Of a stretch of 64,000 nt of DNA, positions 50,947 to 56,037 are shown in pieces. This DNA comes from an uncultured Selenomonadaceae bacterium (GTDB lineage: Bacteria > Bacillota > Negativicutes > Selenomonadales > Selenomonadaceae), in NCBI GenBank assembly GCA_902778455.1, contig CACYXR010000015.1:1-64000 (forward strand), in the 5' to 3' direction. The notes beneath the pieces are model-generated. The model was given only the letters and a program-made list of their open reading frames with translations, was not told the origin of the DNA and ran no database searches. How positions within the stretch are numbered: position 1 is the stretch's first letter; each line of letters starts with the position of its first letter. The position numbers and the translations under genes are program-made.

Positions 50947-51426
50947 ATGAACGAACTGCTCTCGCTCCTGGAGCATGACGCGCGCCGCCCGCTGCCGGAG
51001 CTGGCCGCTGTCCTGAAACGGAGCGAATACGAAGTTGAAAAGGAAATCAAGGCACTGGAAAAAGAGCGCATCATCCTCGGCTACAATACCCTGATCGACT
51101 GGAACAAGGCCGGGACAAACAAGGTCACCGCCGTCATCGAGGTCAACCTGACCCCCCAGCGCGACGTGGGATTTGACGCGATCGCGGACCGCATTTCCCG
51201 TTTTGACGAGGTACGTTCCGTCTTCCTGATGAGCGGAAACTTCGACCTTCTCGTCATCGTCGAGGAAGAATCGCTGCAGGCGATCGCCGACTTCATCGCC
51301 CAGCGTCTCGCCACGATTGACGGCGTCACCTCGACCCGCAGCCATTTCATGCTGAAGCCTTACAAGAAAGACGGCATTATGACCGGGCCGAAGGAACGCG
51401 ATTATCGACTGGTGGTGTCGCCATGA
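50947..51426 (+). CDS. Lrp/AsnC-family transcriptional regulator
   Basis: 159 residues. The N-terminal helix-turn-helix (ARRPLPELAAVLKRSEYEVEKEIKALEKERIILGYNTLID) leads to a RAM effector domain (VTAVIEVNLTPQRD, VRSVFLMSGNFDLLVIV). It probably binds an amino acid. It is followed by, and overlaps by ATGA, an aminotransferase that it likely regulates. The start has TGGAGGTTTTCCC. Confidence 0.93.
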   Translation: MNELLSLLEHDARRPLPELAAVLKRSEYEVEKEIKALEKERIILGYNTLIDWNKAGTNKVTAVIEVNLTPQRDVGFDAIADRISRFDEVRSVFLMSGNFDLLVIVEEESLQAIADFIAQRLATIDGVTSTRSHFMLKPYKKDGIMTGPKERDYRLVVSP

Positions 51427-52607
51427 GCATCGACTGGAAAACGCGGATTTCCCCCGCCGTCGAGGCCGTGCCCCCGTCGGGCATCCGAAAATTTTTCGAC
51501 ATCGCCGCCGAAATGGAGGATGTGATTTCCCTCGGCGTTGGCGAGCCGGACTTCGTGACGCCGTGGACCATCCGAGAAAGCTGTATTTACGGGCTGGAAC
51601 AGGGGCGCACCTCTTACACCGCGAACCGCGGCTTGCCGGAGCTTCGCGAGGAAATCGTACGCCACAAAAAGGAGCAGCACGGCCTCGACTACGACGCGAA
51701 AAACGACGTGCTCGTCACCGTCGGCGTCAGCGAGGCTCTCGACATCGCGCTCCGTGCCATGCTGTCCCCCGGGGACGAGGTGCTGATCCCGGAGCCGTGC
51801 TATGTCTCCTATAAAGCCTGCACGACGCTGGCAGGCGGCGTAGCCGTCCCCGTACCTGCGCGCATCGAAAACGAATTCCGCATCACGGTAGAGGATTTGG
51901 AAGCCCATACCACACCGCGCACCCGCGTATTGTTGATTGGATACCCGAACAACCCCACCGGCGCGGTCATGCGGCGTGAGCATTTGATGGACCTGGCCCG
52001 CTTCGCCGAAGCACACGACCTCTTGGTGATTTCCGACGAGATATACGGCGACCTGACCTACGGCGGCGAGCCGCACGTCTCTTTCGCGTCGCTGCCCGGC
52101 ATGAAGGAACGGACGCTGCTGCTTGACGGCTTTTCCAAAGCCTACGCCATGACCGGCTGGCGCATCGGTTACGCCCTCGGCGCCCCCGAGCTCATCGCCG
52201 CCATGACGAAAATCCATCAATACACCATGCTCTGCGCGCCGATCACTGCCCAGCTTGCCGCCGTCGAGGCGCTGCGCAGAGGCGCGAAGTATCGGGACAA
52301 AATGGTCGCCGAGTACGATATGCGGCGCGGCTTCATTTACCAGGGACTGACGAAACTCGGCCTCAAATGCTTCGAGCCGAAGGGGGCATTCTACATCTTC
52401 CCCGACATCAGCTCCACCGGGCTTTCCGACCCGGAATTCGCGGAAAAGCTGTTGGTCAGCGAGCACGTGGCTCTCGTCCCCGGCAGCGCCTTCGGCGACT
52501 GCGGCAAAGGCTACGTCCGCTGCTCCTACGCAACCTCGCTGGAAAAAATCGACGAGGCATTGGCACGCATCGGCAATTTCCTTACGCACCATACAAAAAC
52601 ATATTGA
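51423..52607 (+). CDS. PLP-dependent class I/II aminotransferase
   Basis: 394 residues. VISLGVGEPDFVTPW, GRTSYTANRGLPELREEI, YPNNPTGAV, SDEIYGDLTYGG and the PLP lysine in LDGFSKAYAMTGWRIGY identify the family I-gamma type. VRCSYATS contains the substrate-carboxylate Arg. The closest functional guess is an aromatic or N-acetyl-diaminopimelate/alanine-type aminotransferase (PatA-like). Its neighbour is the Lrp regulator, which supports an amino-acid role. The substrate is undetermined. Confidence 0.92.
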   Translation: MSIDWKTRISPAVEAVPPSGIRKFFDIAAEMEDVISLGVGEPDFVTPWTIRESCIYGLEQGRTSYTANRGLPELREEIVRHKKEQHGLDYDAKNDVLVTVGVSEALDIALRAMLSPGDEVLIPEPCYVSYKACTTLAGGVAVPVPARIENEFRITVEDLEAHTTPRTRVLLIGYPNNPTGAVMRREHLMDLARFAEAHDLLVISDEIYGDLTYGGEPHVSFASLPGMKERTLLLDGFSKAYAMTGWRIGYALGAPELIAAMTKIHQYTMLCAPITAQLAAVEALRRGAKYRDKMVAEYDMRRGFIYQGLTKLGLKCFEPKGAFYIFPDISSTGLSDPEFAEKLLVSEHVALVPGSAFGDCGKGYVRCSYATSLEKIDEALARIGNFLTHHTKTY

Positions 52608-52640
52608 GACTTTGCCGGAAATCCCGTTTTGGAATAAAAG

Positions 52641-52670
52641 TTGTCCTTTATCTCAATTTTTTGGTAAAAT
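52641..52670 (+). promoter_or_regulatory. Predicted promoter of the XRE regulator
   Basis: TTGTCC, 18-nt spacer, TAAAAT. An AT-rich island between GC-rich genes. Confidence 0.55.
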
Positions 52671-52732
52671 AAATTGAAGCGAATTGATCTGAAAGCCGCT
52701 GACTTTGAAAACCGCCTTGAGGGGGATTATTC

Positions 52733-53089
52733 ATGCAAAGCAATCGTCTGCGCTATCTCCGCGAAAAAGAGTCGCTGACCCAGACAGACATCGCCCATGC
52801 GCTCCATATCGGCCAGTCCACATACAACCGTTACGAGCGCGGCATCCGCGAACCGGATCATGAAACACTAAAGAAAATAGCGGATTATTTTCATGTGTCC
52901 CTCGATTTCCTGCTGAAACACGACCGTCCCTATACGCGAAAAGAGCCGGATATCGACCTTTCGGCTTTCCTTTTGGACGGCTCTTACAAAATCTTTTCCA
53001 AAACGCCGACGCAAAAGGACCGCAAAAAGCTGGTCAACATCCTGAACGCTCTTTACGGTGACGAGGCGGAAGGCAAAAAACATTCCTGA
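52733..53089 (+). CDS. XRE-family transcriptional regulator
   Basis: 118 residues. Helix-turn-helix at about 5-60: NRLRYLREKESLTQTDIAHALHIGQSTYNRYERGIREPDHETLKKIADYF. The C-terminal part (DIDLSAFLLDGSYKIFSKTPTQKDRKKLVNILNALYG) is a short dimerisation or sensing region. It is like the SinR/Xre controllers of Firmicutes. The start has GAGGGGGATTATTC. It lies before the parS/flagellin block and could govern it, but no operator is identified. Confidence 0.88.
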   Translation: MQSNRLRYLREKESLTQTDIAHALHIGQSTYNRYERGIREPDHETLKKIADYFHVSLDFLLKHDRPYTRKEPDIDLSAFLLDGSYKIFSKTPTQKDRKKLVNILNALYGDEAEGKKHS

Positions 53090-53095
53090 ACGGAC

Positions 53096-53136
53096 AAAAA
53101 ACTCGCGAGACGCATCTTCGTCCCGCGAGTTTTTTC
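53096..53136 (+). terminator. Terminator of the XRE gene
   Basis: ACTCGCG-GACG stem pairing with CGTC-CGCGAGT, flanked by A-run and T6 run. Confidence 0.93.
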
Positions 53137-53178
53137 TTTGCCCATTTAAGTTTCCGGAGCAACAAAAAATCGAAAAAA

Positions 53179-53194
53179 TGTTTCACGTGAAACA
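53179..53194. promoter_or_regulatory. parS: parS site 3
   Basis: Perfect TGTTTCACGTGAAACA, immediately upstream of the flagellin promoter. Bases 53195-53223 are the reverse complement of the block found next to sites 1 and 2, with few changes. Confidence 0.92.
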
Positions 53195-53252
53195 AACGAA
53201 CATAACATGAAAATTAAATGAAAACGAATCGTTGTTTTTGGTCTTAAGTTTT

Positions 53253-53281
53253 TTGCCGAAAATTACGATATATAGTATAAT
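53253..53281 (+). promoter_or_regulatory. Sigma70 promoter of the flagellin gene
   Basis: TTGCCG, 17-nt spacer, TATAAT; start near 53288. No convincing sigma28 (TAAA/GCCGATAA) spacing was found. Confidence 0.7.
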
Positions 53282-53345
53282 AACTGTAACCAAAATTCTC
53301 ACGACGCACACGGACGAAACGCAACACAAGAAGGAGGTACGCGCC

Positions 53346-53393
53346 ATGAGGACACGTATTCAGGGGGGGGGGACAGAACCCATTCTGTTCTGA
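53346..53393 (+). other. Leader ORF with G10 tract (putative phase-variable upstream frame)
   Basis: AAGGAGGTACGCGCC precedes ATG 53346, a better ribosome site than that of the flagellin itself. The frame reads MRTRIQGGGTEPILF and stops at 53391-53393. A run of ten G (53363-53372) lies inside it. Deleting one G makes the frame open straight into the flagellin gene with no stop. Adding one G ends it at a TGA that overlaps the third flagellin codon (ATGA). A hairpin CAGAAC/GTTCTG follows the run. It could equally be a REP-like insert or a sequencing error. Confidence 0.5.
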
Positions 53394-53472
53394 CCCAAAG
53401 CAAAATATCGGGTTTCATCAGGGAAGGGCGTCTCGCCGTTCTCCTTTTCGCGTGGGAAAGGGGGCGCTCTCC

Positions 53473-56037
53473 ATGGCAATGACGATCCAGCACGACGGCT
53501 CCGCCATGCTGACCCTCGGCGAAGTCGCGAAAAACAACAGCGCCATGACGAAGAACCTGAAAAAGCTCGCCTCCGGGCAGAAGATCAACAGCGCCGGGGA
53601 CGACGCCTCCGGTTATGCCATCAGCGAAAAAATGCGCGTGCGGATTCGCGCCCTCGAACAGGACACGCGGAACACCCAGACCGGCTCGAGTATGCTGCGC
53701 GTCGCCGAGGGCGGCGTCCAGAGCATCATCGACGAGCTGCGCACGCTGAAAGAGCTGGCGCTGAACGCGGCCAACGATCACAACACCGACCTCGACCGCG
53801 CCACGATTCAAAAAGAGTTCGACCAGCGGCGGGCGAACATCGACAACATCGCCGTCGAGACGAACTACAACGGGAAAATATTGCTGGACGGCAGCTACAA
53901 GGCCGTCATCGAAGTCGGCGTGCCCCGCCTCGTCAGCACGGACACGACGCAGACCACCGACGTCGTCGGTCCCGTGACCACGACGAGCACCGCGCAAACG
54001 GGCTCCACCGGGCCGACCTCCACCACCGAGACCCTCAGCGACGTGACCACTGGCCCCGTCCGGCAGGACACCGCGCCCACCACAGGCACCACGTCGAGCA
54101 CGGTGAACGACCCGACCTCCACCGTGACGACCACGGTCGGGACGACCGGGCCGACGGCGCTGCCGCCCACCGCCACGACGAACACCACGCGGACGACAGA
54201 CGCCGACACCCCGACGGAAGGGCAGACCACCGAGACCATCACCAAGACGGACGTCACGGTGGAAGTGTCGGAAAGCACCGAAACGAAGCGGACGACCACC
54301 ACCGACGTCAGCACGACGACGACCACGACGGTTACCTCCACCCCGGTAGAGGTCGAAGTGGACGTCACGCCGACCACCATCACAAACGGCACGACGGAAA
54401 TCACGACAGGCGGCGTCTACAAATTCGCGGCGGGCTACACGGGAACGCTGACCATCAGCGCCTCCGACGTCACCTTGATTGGCGCGGGCTCGCAGCTGAC
54501 CGACGTCTATATCGTAGACAACGGCGTGGACACGCTGACCATCAAAGACCTGAATATTGAAAATACACAAGATAAATCTGCCATCGCCTTTGACAGCGCC
54601 ACGAACAACAAGCTGCGTCTGTTGGGGACGAATACGATTTCGACCACCTACCCCAGCGACAGTAACAACATGGAACAAGCGCTTGTCTATGCGGGGGGCG
54701 GACTGTCCGTCGTGGGCAGCGGCGGCACGCTGAACCTGAACACCCCGGCGAGCGGGCAAGTGTGCTGCGCGATTCTCGGCGCTTCCTTCACCTCCCCTTG
54801 CGGCGACATTTCCATCGGACAGAACGTAAACCTCAACATCACCCATTTCCAAGGCACGGGCATTGGCAGTGCCAACGCCAAATCTGGCACTACTACCTAT
54901 AACAAAGATGGACGATGCGGAAACATCTCCATCGGTACCGGCGCGAACGTCAAAATCATTACAACCTCAACCGGTTGCACTGCCGCCGGTATCGGTACGG
55001 GAAATTTCACTGGTATAACGTCTGACCATGGCGGATGCGGCAACATCACCATCTATTCCGGCGCGACGGTAGATGTGACATCGGGAAGCGGTGCGGCGAT
55101 TGGCTGTGGATGGCGGTCTGCTCGATGCGGCAATATCACCATTTATTCCAACGCGGAAGTCACGGCGCAATGCCAGTATCCCAAGTCAAGCGCCGACATC
55201 GGATGCGGTTCTGCCAATTCCTACTTACAATCTATTACCATCTATTCCTACGATAGCGGCAAAGTTACCGCTTCCTATATTGGTGTGAGATCTAGCGGTC
55301 AAGCTCAGGTCGGACCGATTAAAAAGCTGACCGAAGAAAACATCACCAATGGCGGTGAACTCGACACCACCAACCCGACCAAGACCAAAGTGACCAAATA
55401 CGACGTGACTACACAGGTCGTCACCAAAAAAACCACCACGGTCAGCACCGTGGACAACACCACGACCACGCGGGACACGACCACCACCACCGTGACCGAC
55501 GTGACCACCAACGTATTCGACGACGCGCCCACCGACGAGGGCGAGCGGCTCGTCATTCACCATGACACCAAGGCGAACACGGCGATGCACGTCCACCTTG
55601 AGGATATGCGGACGGCGGCGCTGAAGAGCGAAATCCCGAACGAGGAGGACCTCGAGCAGCTCTCGAAGCTCAAAGAGCCGGAACTCTCCGCCCTGCAAGC
55701 CGTTCTCGACGAAGCGAAGGACAAGAGCCTCGCCGATACCAGCGTCAGCTCGCAGAAAAGCGCGAACGTCACCATCCGCGTAGTGGACGGTGCGATCCAG
55801 TACGCCCTCGACCAGGCGACCACCATAGGCGCGTACATCGCAAGGCTGAACTTCACCGAGGCGAACCTGGTCACCGCCACCGAAAACACGATCCAAAGCG
55901 AAAGCACGATCCGCGACGCCGACATGGCAAAGGAAATGGCGGAGTACACGAAAAACAACGTCCTCCTCCAAGCCTCCCAGTCCATGCTCGCGCAGGCCAA
56001 CCAAAACACCTCGACCGTGCTGGGATTGCTGCAATAG
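53473..56037 (+). CDS. Chimeric flagellin with Thr-rich linkers and beta-helix-like insert
   Basis: 854 residues from ATG 53473 (GGGAAAGGGGG). N-terminal D0/D1 flagellin (MAMTIQHDG to about 145: ASGQKINSAGDDASGYAISEKM, LLDGS). Next is a region very rich in Thr/Val (about 150-300), then a right-handed beta-helix-like segment (about 310-620). The latter has repeated C-G-[DN]-I-[ST]-I units (PCGDISIG, RCGNISIG, GCGNITIY, RCGNITIY). A second Thr-rich linker precedes C-terminal D1/D0 (TIRDADMAKEMAEYTKNNVLLQASQSMLAQANQ). Ten Cys in the insert are exceptional for a flagellin. The insert recalls carbohydrate-binding or adhesin modules. Export should be by the flagellar route if the N terminus is free. 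Confidence 0.88.
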   Translation: MAMTIQHDGSAMLTLGEVAKNNSAMTKNLKKLASGQKINSAGDDASGYAISEKMRVRIRALEQDTRNTQTGSSMLRVAEGGVQSIIDELRTLKELALNAANDHNTDLDRATIQKEFDQRRANIDNIAVETNYNGKILLDGSYKAVIEVGVPRLVSTDTTQTTDVVGPVTTTSTAQTGSTGPTSTTETLSDVTTGPVRQDTAPTTGTTSSTVNDPTSTVTTTVGTTGPTALPPTATTNTTRTTDADTPTEGQTTETITKTDVTVEVSESTETKRTTTTDVSTTTTTTVTSTPVEVEVDVTPTTITNGTTEITTGGVYKFAAGYTGTLTISASDVTLIGAGSQLTDVYIVDNGVDTLTIKDLNIENTQDKSAIAFDSATNNKLRLLGTNTISTTYPSDSNNMEQALVYAGGGLSVVGSGGTLNLNTPASGQVCCAILGASFTSPCGDISIGQNVNLNITHFQGTGIGSANAKSGTTTYNKDGRCGNISIGTGANVKIITTSTGCTAAGIGTGNFTGITSDHGGCGNITIYSGATVDVTSGSGAAIGCGWRSARCGNITIYSNAEVTAQCQYPKSSADIGCGSANSYLQSITIYSYDSGKVTASYIGVRSSGQAQVGPIKKLTEENITNGGELDTTNPTKTKVTKYDVTTQVVTKKTTTVSTVDNTTTTRDTTTTTVTDVTTNVFDDAPTDEGERLVIHHDTKANTAMHVHLEDMRTAALKSEIPNEEDLEQLSKLKEPELSALQAVLDEAKDKSLADTSVSSQKSANVTIRVVDGAIQYALDQATTIGAYIARLNFTEANLVTATENTIQSESTIRDADMAKEMAEYTKNNVLLQASQSMLAQANQNTSTVLGLLQ

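Follow-up and report, generated by a model that had tools for sequence, protein, structure and literature searches.

A G tract within a leader open reading frame as a candidate phase switch for flagellin translation in an uncultured Selenomonadaceae bacterium

Introduction

The locus described here is reminiscent of the pil1 and pil3 pilus loci of Streptococcus gallolyticus, in which a repeat lies within a leader open reading frame (ORF) led by a Shine-Dalgarno (SD) sequence and the repeat number sets the reading frame (PMC3894217). In pil1, the number of GCAGA repeats in the leader determines whether translation extends over a transcription terminator (PMC3894217). A short peptide that ends before the hairpin gives low expression, a longer peptide that crosses it gives high expression, and the product is a surface appendage, features that recur, the low and high states as a proposal, in the present locus, found in a 64,000-nt stretch of DNA (the window). 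The repeats of pil1/pil3 are GCAGA pentamers, whereas the window has a mononucleotide tract; the pil1/pil3 hairpin is an intrinsic transcription terminator, whereas the window hairpin is predicted to mask a flagellin SD and no terminator was found on the + strand; and the pil1/pil3 repeats control a pilus operon rather than a flagellin, with no conserved UGAUG-coupled peptide found described for pil1 (PMC3894217). The lack of a terminator, one of the defining features of pil1, sets the window tract apart from that type.

The poly-G and poly-C tracts by which Campylobacter and Helicobacter vary surface and motility genes are located mostly in coding frames or promoters. They resemble the window tract in that homopolymeric G or C runs slip at surface genes (PMC6321876, PMC8355987). 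Similar to the window, the sortase-pilus switch of Bifidobacterium breve contains a G10/G11 tract whose frame decides translation into the next ORF, and its slippage has been measured (PMC9187656); in B. breve the tract is part of the coding gene and a fusion is made in the ON state (PMC9187656), whereas the ON state proposed here is coupling that leaves the native N terminus. A length-variable G tract in an mRNA leader is also seen in tlpB-hp0102 of Helicobacter pylori, where the small RNA RepG exerts graded control of a chemoreceptor/LPS gene (PMC8295292), whereas for the window the frame of a leader ORF is proposed to matter. Translational coupling by RNA unfolding or re-initiation, in which UGAUG or other short overlaps are used and upstream translation unmasks a downstream ribosome-binding site, is usually fixed (reviewed in PMC12548453), whereas coupling in the window would be switchable by a slippage tract. 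In the open-access literature searched, neither a flagellin switch coupled through a leader ORF nor a report of phase variation in Selenomonadaceae was found. The principle is known from pil1, where it works through transcription termination; the variant proposed here, with a homopolymer, a flagellin SD that is predicted to be masked and a leader peptide that is conserved and coupled in relatives, is new.

Results

Overall architecture of the flagellin locus

The elements of the locus, by window position, are as follows.

53244..53270, + strand: sigma28 (FliA/SigD)-like promoter, TTAAG...CGATA, assigned by motif match
53331..53338, + strand: strong SD of the leader ORF (SD1), AAGGAGGT, 7 nt 5' of the ATG, read directly from the sequence
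53346..53393, + strand: leader ORF of 15 codons in the assembled G10 state, translated as MRTRIQGGGTEPILF and a stop
53363..53372, + strand: G10 tract, the proposed slippage site
53374..53392, + strand: CAGAAC...GTTCTG inverted repeat adjoining the tract, of doubtful role
53441..53449, + strand: anti-SD-like CTCCTTTTC, predicted to be able to pair with the flagellin SD
53457..53464, + strand: flagellin SD (SD2), AAAGGGGG, predicted to be occluded
53473..56037, + strand: flagellin gene (854 aa, including a long variable region rich in Thr), assigned by Pfam
53480..53482, + strand: coupling stop TGA, which ends the leader ORF at G11 or G8 and overlaps Met3 of the flagellin

The flagellin matches Flagellin_N (E 3.8e-35) and Flagellin_C (E 3.3e-17) of Pfam. 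The motif TTAA[GAT]-N14-18-NCGATA is found in 101 of 211 flagellin upstream regions versus 1 of 211 shuffled upstream regions. Because the sigma28-like promoter occupies 53244-53270, the G tract lies in the transcribed leader and not in a promoter spacer. No other G run in the window reaches a length of 8; the length of the tract is taken from the assembly, in which a homopolymer count may be off by one.

From its ATG at 53346, the SD-led leader ORF ends in the assembled G10 frame at a TGA (53391-53393) 79 nt upstream of the flagellin ATG, as the first-pass annotation had read it. Translation bears out the two other frames reported there: at G9 the leader continues without interruption, in frame, into the flagellin, which gains 42 residues, and at G11 (or G8) it ends at the TGA of 53480-53482 (+10), overlapping Met3, so that a coupling-type stop near the flagellin start is present in one frame. 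This last geometry probably represents the ON state in function.

The same annotation had proposed that the CAGAAC/GTTCTG hairpin beside the tract may mark a mobile repeat, a claim that the genome does not support. No second copy of 53260-53480, leader or hairpin, was found in the genome, which rules out a dispersed mobile (MITE-like) repeat, and the short stretches of the leader that match other parts of the genome do so by chance, in unrelated sequence. The hairpin itself, at -17 kcal/mol (z -1.56), is equaled in stability by 18 of 200 shuffled sequences and is not above chance. An Rfam search returned no riboregulator, its best match being a snoRNA at E 0.86.

The genome encodes at least four other typical flagellins in addition to that of the window, and family genomes carry several each. 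The nearest named matches of a neighboring gene are from Schwartzia sp. and Selenomonas bovis. A Schwartzia metagenome-assembled genome (MAG; L118) contains the same aminotransferase-HTH pair as window positions 51423-53089 but has no flagellin next to it; on the basis of this pair, the flagellin at the window site appears to have been inserted or lost. No recognizable orthologous leader was found in the genus of the window.

Chance level of the tract and of the reading frames

The 2.6-Mb genome contains three G runs of 9 or more (two G9 and the G10 of the window), three G8 runs and at least about 44 G7 runs. A geometric tail predicts about 0.01-0.02 G10 runs, a conservative figure, as the G7 count is a lower bound, and the G10 tract is exceptional for its genome. 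The two G9 runs are located elsewhere. One (L009, G000:C1:62785-62793) lies exactly between TTGACA and TAGAAT, with a spacer of 16, and is followed by an ORF of 153 aa that looks secreted and has no Pfam match; it is likely a promoter-spacing phase switch. The other (L010, G000:C9:115460-115468) is in frame close to the 3' end of a 472-aa SLH-domain porin gene, where an altered tract length would swap the terminal beta strand of the porin. Promoter spacers and coding sequences are classic positions for contingency runs.

The frames that surround the G10 tract are ordinary by comparison with shuffled sequence. Two or more open leader frames arise in about 80% of dinucleotide shuffles, which is not above chance, and the +10 stop is inherent to any flagellin that begins with ATGGCAATGA; the three states are for these reasons no evidence by themselves. 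None of the leader frames has coding-like codon usage. It is the genomic context, rather than the frames or the hairpin, that raises the observation above chance.

Homopolymeric tracts at flagellin starts of relatives

This context was evaluated in 37 family genomes, one per genus outside the genus of the window, which together provide 114 flagellin starts. Seven runs of 9 or more lie at these starts versus at most 0.14 expected from the genome-wide frequency (P 1.5e-10), and the enrichment would persist even were all runs confined to 12% of the genome (P 1.7e-4). In a wider set of 216 flagellin starts, 12 carry a run of at least 8 G or C between -250 and +150.

The runs vary in where they lie. 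By the position classes adopted here, tracts within a leader ORF are found in the window, L299, L334 and L342, and tracts in a sigma70-like promoter spacer in L062, L065 and L311. In L271 (G004:C58), which is from the same genus as the window, a C10 run at -89 lies a few nucleotides 5' of a sigma28-like flagellin promoter. In L241 (G012:C14, G11 at -41) and L205 (G022:C23, G9 at -58), the tract constitutes one arm of a 5'UTR hairpin just 5' of the flagellin SD, and a leader ORF is not apparent. Two flagellins of one genome (G027), L071 and L273, contain G10 (+120) and G14 (+119) runs around codon 40, in a loop of the D0 region that is conserved; in the assembly neither gene is in frame, and each would be restored if its run changed in length by one base. 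The presence of unrelated runs at like positions in relatives suggests, as far as sequence can tell, that random switching of flagellins has been acquired repeatedly in these bacteria.

Leader-ORF tracts and a conserved leader peptide

The window flagellin (G10), L299 (C10), L334 (G8) and L342 (G8) share a common plan: a sigma28-like promoter, a strong SD, an ATG, 3-7 codons, the tract, 70-110 nt, a second SD and the flagellin. An AGGAGG-ATG equivalent to SD1 of the window is present in L299, L334 and L342 and also in L298, L300, L301 and L322. As assembled, all four leaders stop early, at -79 in the window and at -97, -98 and -45 in the other three. At G9 the leader of L334 would stop at +10, the same position as in the window at G11, and at C9 that of L299 would stop at a UGAUG on the flagellin start, a frame that the assembled C10 breaks. 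In L342, one extra T is present in the leader and no frame reaches the flagellin start. L334 and L342, from two species, otherwise have near-identical leaders; the one-T difference falls in a T5/T6 run and alters the frames that reach the flagellin, and this run is a possible second slippage site.

The homologues L298, L300 and L301, whose flagellin N termini are 70-73% identical, have no long tract. Instead, they contain an uninterrupted leader peptide, MMIK...GGEV and a stop, with the stop overlapping the flagellin start as UGAUG. Between the leaders of L300 and L301, pN/pS is 0.13 in the peptide frame versus 2.4 and 1.2 in the other frames, a comparison that draws on one informative pair of 20 codons, as pairs with L299 are not discriminating. 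By this one 20-codon pair, the L300/L301 leader peptide is under purifying selection. The conserved end of the peptide (QCS..YK...LH...GGEV and the stop) is kept by L299 in the C9 frame only, and this frame, together with the conserved peptide, provides the strongest evidence for translation of these leaders and for a tract that breaks and restores coupling. No nucleotide homology is detectable between the window leader and leaders of the L298-L301 type; the leader-peptide family is an analogue of the window leader with a like plan and not a proven homologue.

A flagellin start predicted to be masked

Regions from -75 to +20 around 208 flagellin starts were folded, and the 8 leader-ORF genes were compared with the 200 others. 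The predicted median probability that the SD is unpaired is 0.16 in the leader-ORF genes versus 0.60 in the others (Mann-Whitney P 4.5e-6; GC-adjusted 2.2e-6), with the 8 genes amounting to about three independent groups. The window flagellin, with a predicted value of 0.16, lies at the 7th percentile of the 208. In the window, CTCCTTTTC at 53441-53449 is complementary to GAAAGGGGG at 53456-53464 across a 6-nt loop. Some uncoupled initiation at the flagellin is likely, its SD being strong itself.

Discussion

The G10 tract is very probably phase-variable. Frame-gated translational coupling to the flagellin is probably its main mechanism, although with less assurance than the variability of the tract itself. 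The leader mRNA would begin at the sigma28-type promoter, and ribosomes would load at SD1 and translate across the G tract. At G10, the proposed OFF or low state, ribosomes would stop 79 nt upstream while the flagellin SD is still masked by the upstream anti-SD. At G11 or G8, the proposed ON state, they would traverse the masking hairpin and stop in the first flagellin codons, the SD would be unmasked, and initiation or re-initiation could occur at Met1 of the flagellin. At G9 or G12, an in-frame fusion would result, which at G9 would have 42 non-native residues and would probably be export-defective or poorly polymerizing; normal initiation may also occur in these states as the hairpin is opened by ribosomes. 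The parts of the model that we infer are population slippage, the assignment of ON and OFF, and the phenotype.

Control at the level of the RNA, graded by tract length, is an unlikely alternative to this coupling. A C/U-rich small RNA or an RNA structure would act on the G-repeat of the 5'UTR, as RepG does in H. pylori, where the length of the tlpB G-repeat in the mRNA leader sets small-RNA control (PMC8295292). The window tract does lie within a transcribed 5'UTR, the predicted accessibility of SD2 declines with tract length (0.29 at G8, 0.12 at G12), and in L205 and L241, where no leader ORF is obvious, the tract adjoins a 5'UTR hairpin. However, four tracts are placed 3-7 codons into an SD-led ORF, one of them is a C run that a G-binding small RNA would leave unexplained, and the conserved leader peptide with its UGAUG stop points to the reading frame.

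Control of transcription, by Rho-dependent polarity or by attenuation, is improbable. Its frame logic equals that of pil1 (PMC3894217), an early stop leading to premature termination and a long leader to read-through, and the early stop in the window does leave about 80 nt untranslated. Against this, no + strand intrinsic terminator was found in the leader region 53080-53600, and the predicted hairpins cover the flagellin SD.

A switch of antigen with three states, in which the cell would export and display the extended G9 flagellin in addition to having normal and low states, is very unlikely. The G9 frame does run open as far as the flagellin, with its added residues, but its codon score is -11.8 versus +11 (sd 4.5) for real genes, flagellin N termini in the family begin at a MAM-type Met, and no tract length fuses leader and flagellin in L299, L334 or L342. 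The non-coding codon usage and the family start at the flagellin Met make the G9 fusion unlikely to be an evolved product. The proposal of the first-pass annotation that tract length switches either the translation or the N terminus of the flagellin is divided accordingly: switched translation is favored by the tract enrichment, the convergent leader-ORF tracts, the L299 frame and the occlusion of the SD, whereas the non-coding G9 frame and the family start at Met speak against a switched N terminus.

An ordinary or miscounted 5'UTR homopolymer with a fortuitous SD-ATG has very little probability: assembly homopolymer lengths are error-prone and the open frames and hairpin are within chance, but flagellin starts are enriched in tracts, the architecture recurs, and a one-base length error would leave the tract in place.

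Under frame-gated coupling, the presence of at least four other typical flagellins makes an effect of the tract on filament composition or antigenicity likely, rather than on motility alone. The phenotype of the switch would be which of several flagellins is displayed and not a simple loss of motility. A broader proposal, put forward tentatively and somewhat more doubtful than not, is that Selenomonadaceae have a module for flagellin control, a conserved leader peptide coupled to a masked flagellin start, and that homopolymers which arose independently in this peptide (G in some lineages, C in another) have turned it into a stochastic three-way frame switch. The tracts found in coding sequence, in 5'UTR hairpins, in promoter spacers and 5' of a promoter would then contribute to a combinatorial random choice of flagellin.

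Flagellin is a major antigen and a phage receptor, and Selenomonadaceae are common in the rumen, gut and mouth. If the model is true, the principle of S. gallolyticus, a repeat in a leader peptide, would be extended from transcription attenuation to translation. A single homopolymer would have sufficed to make a fixed translational coupling switch at random, and the choice among flagellins in commensals that have several would be directly testable by amplicon reads.
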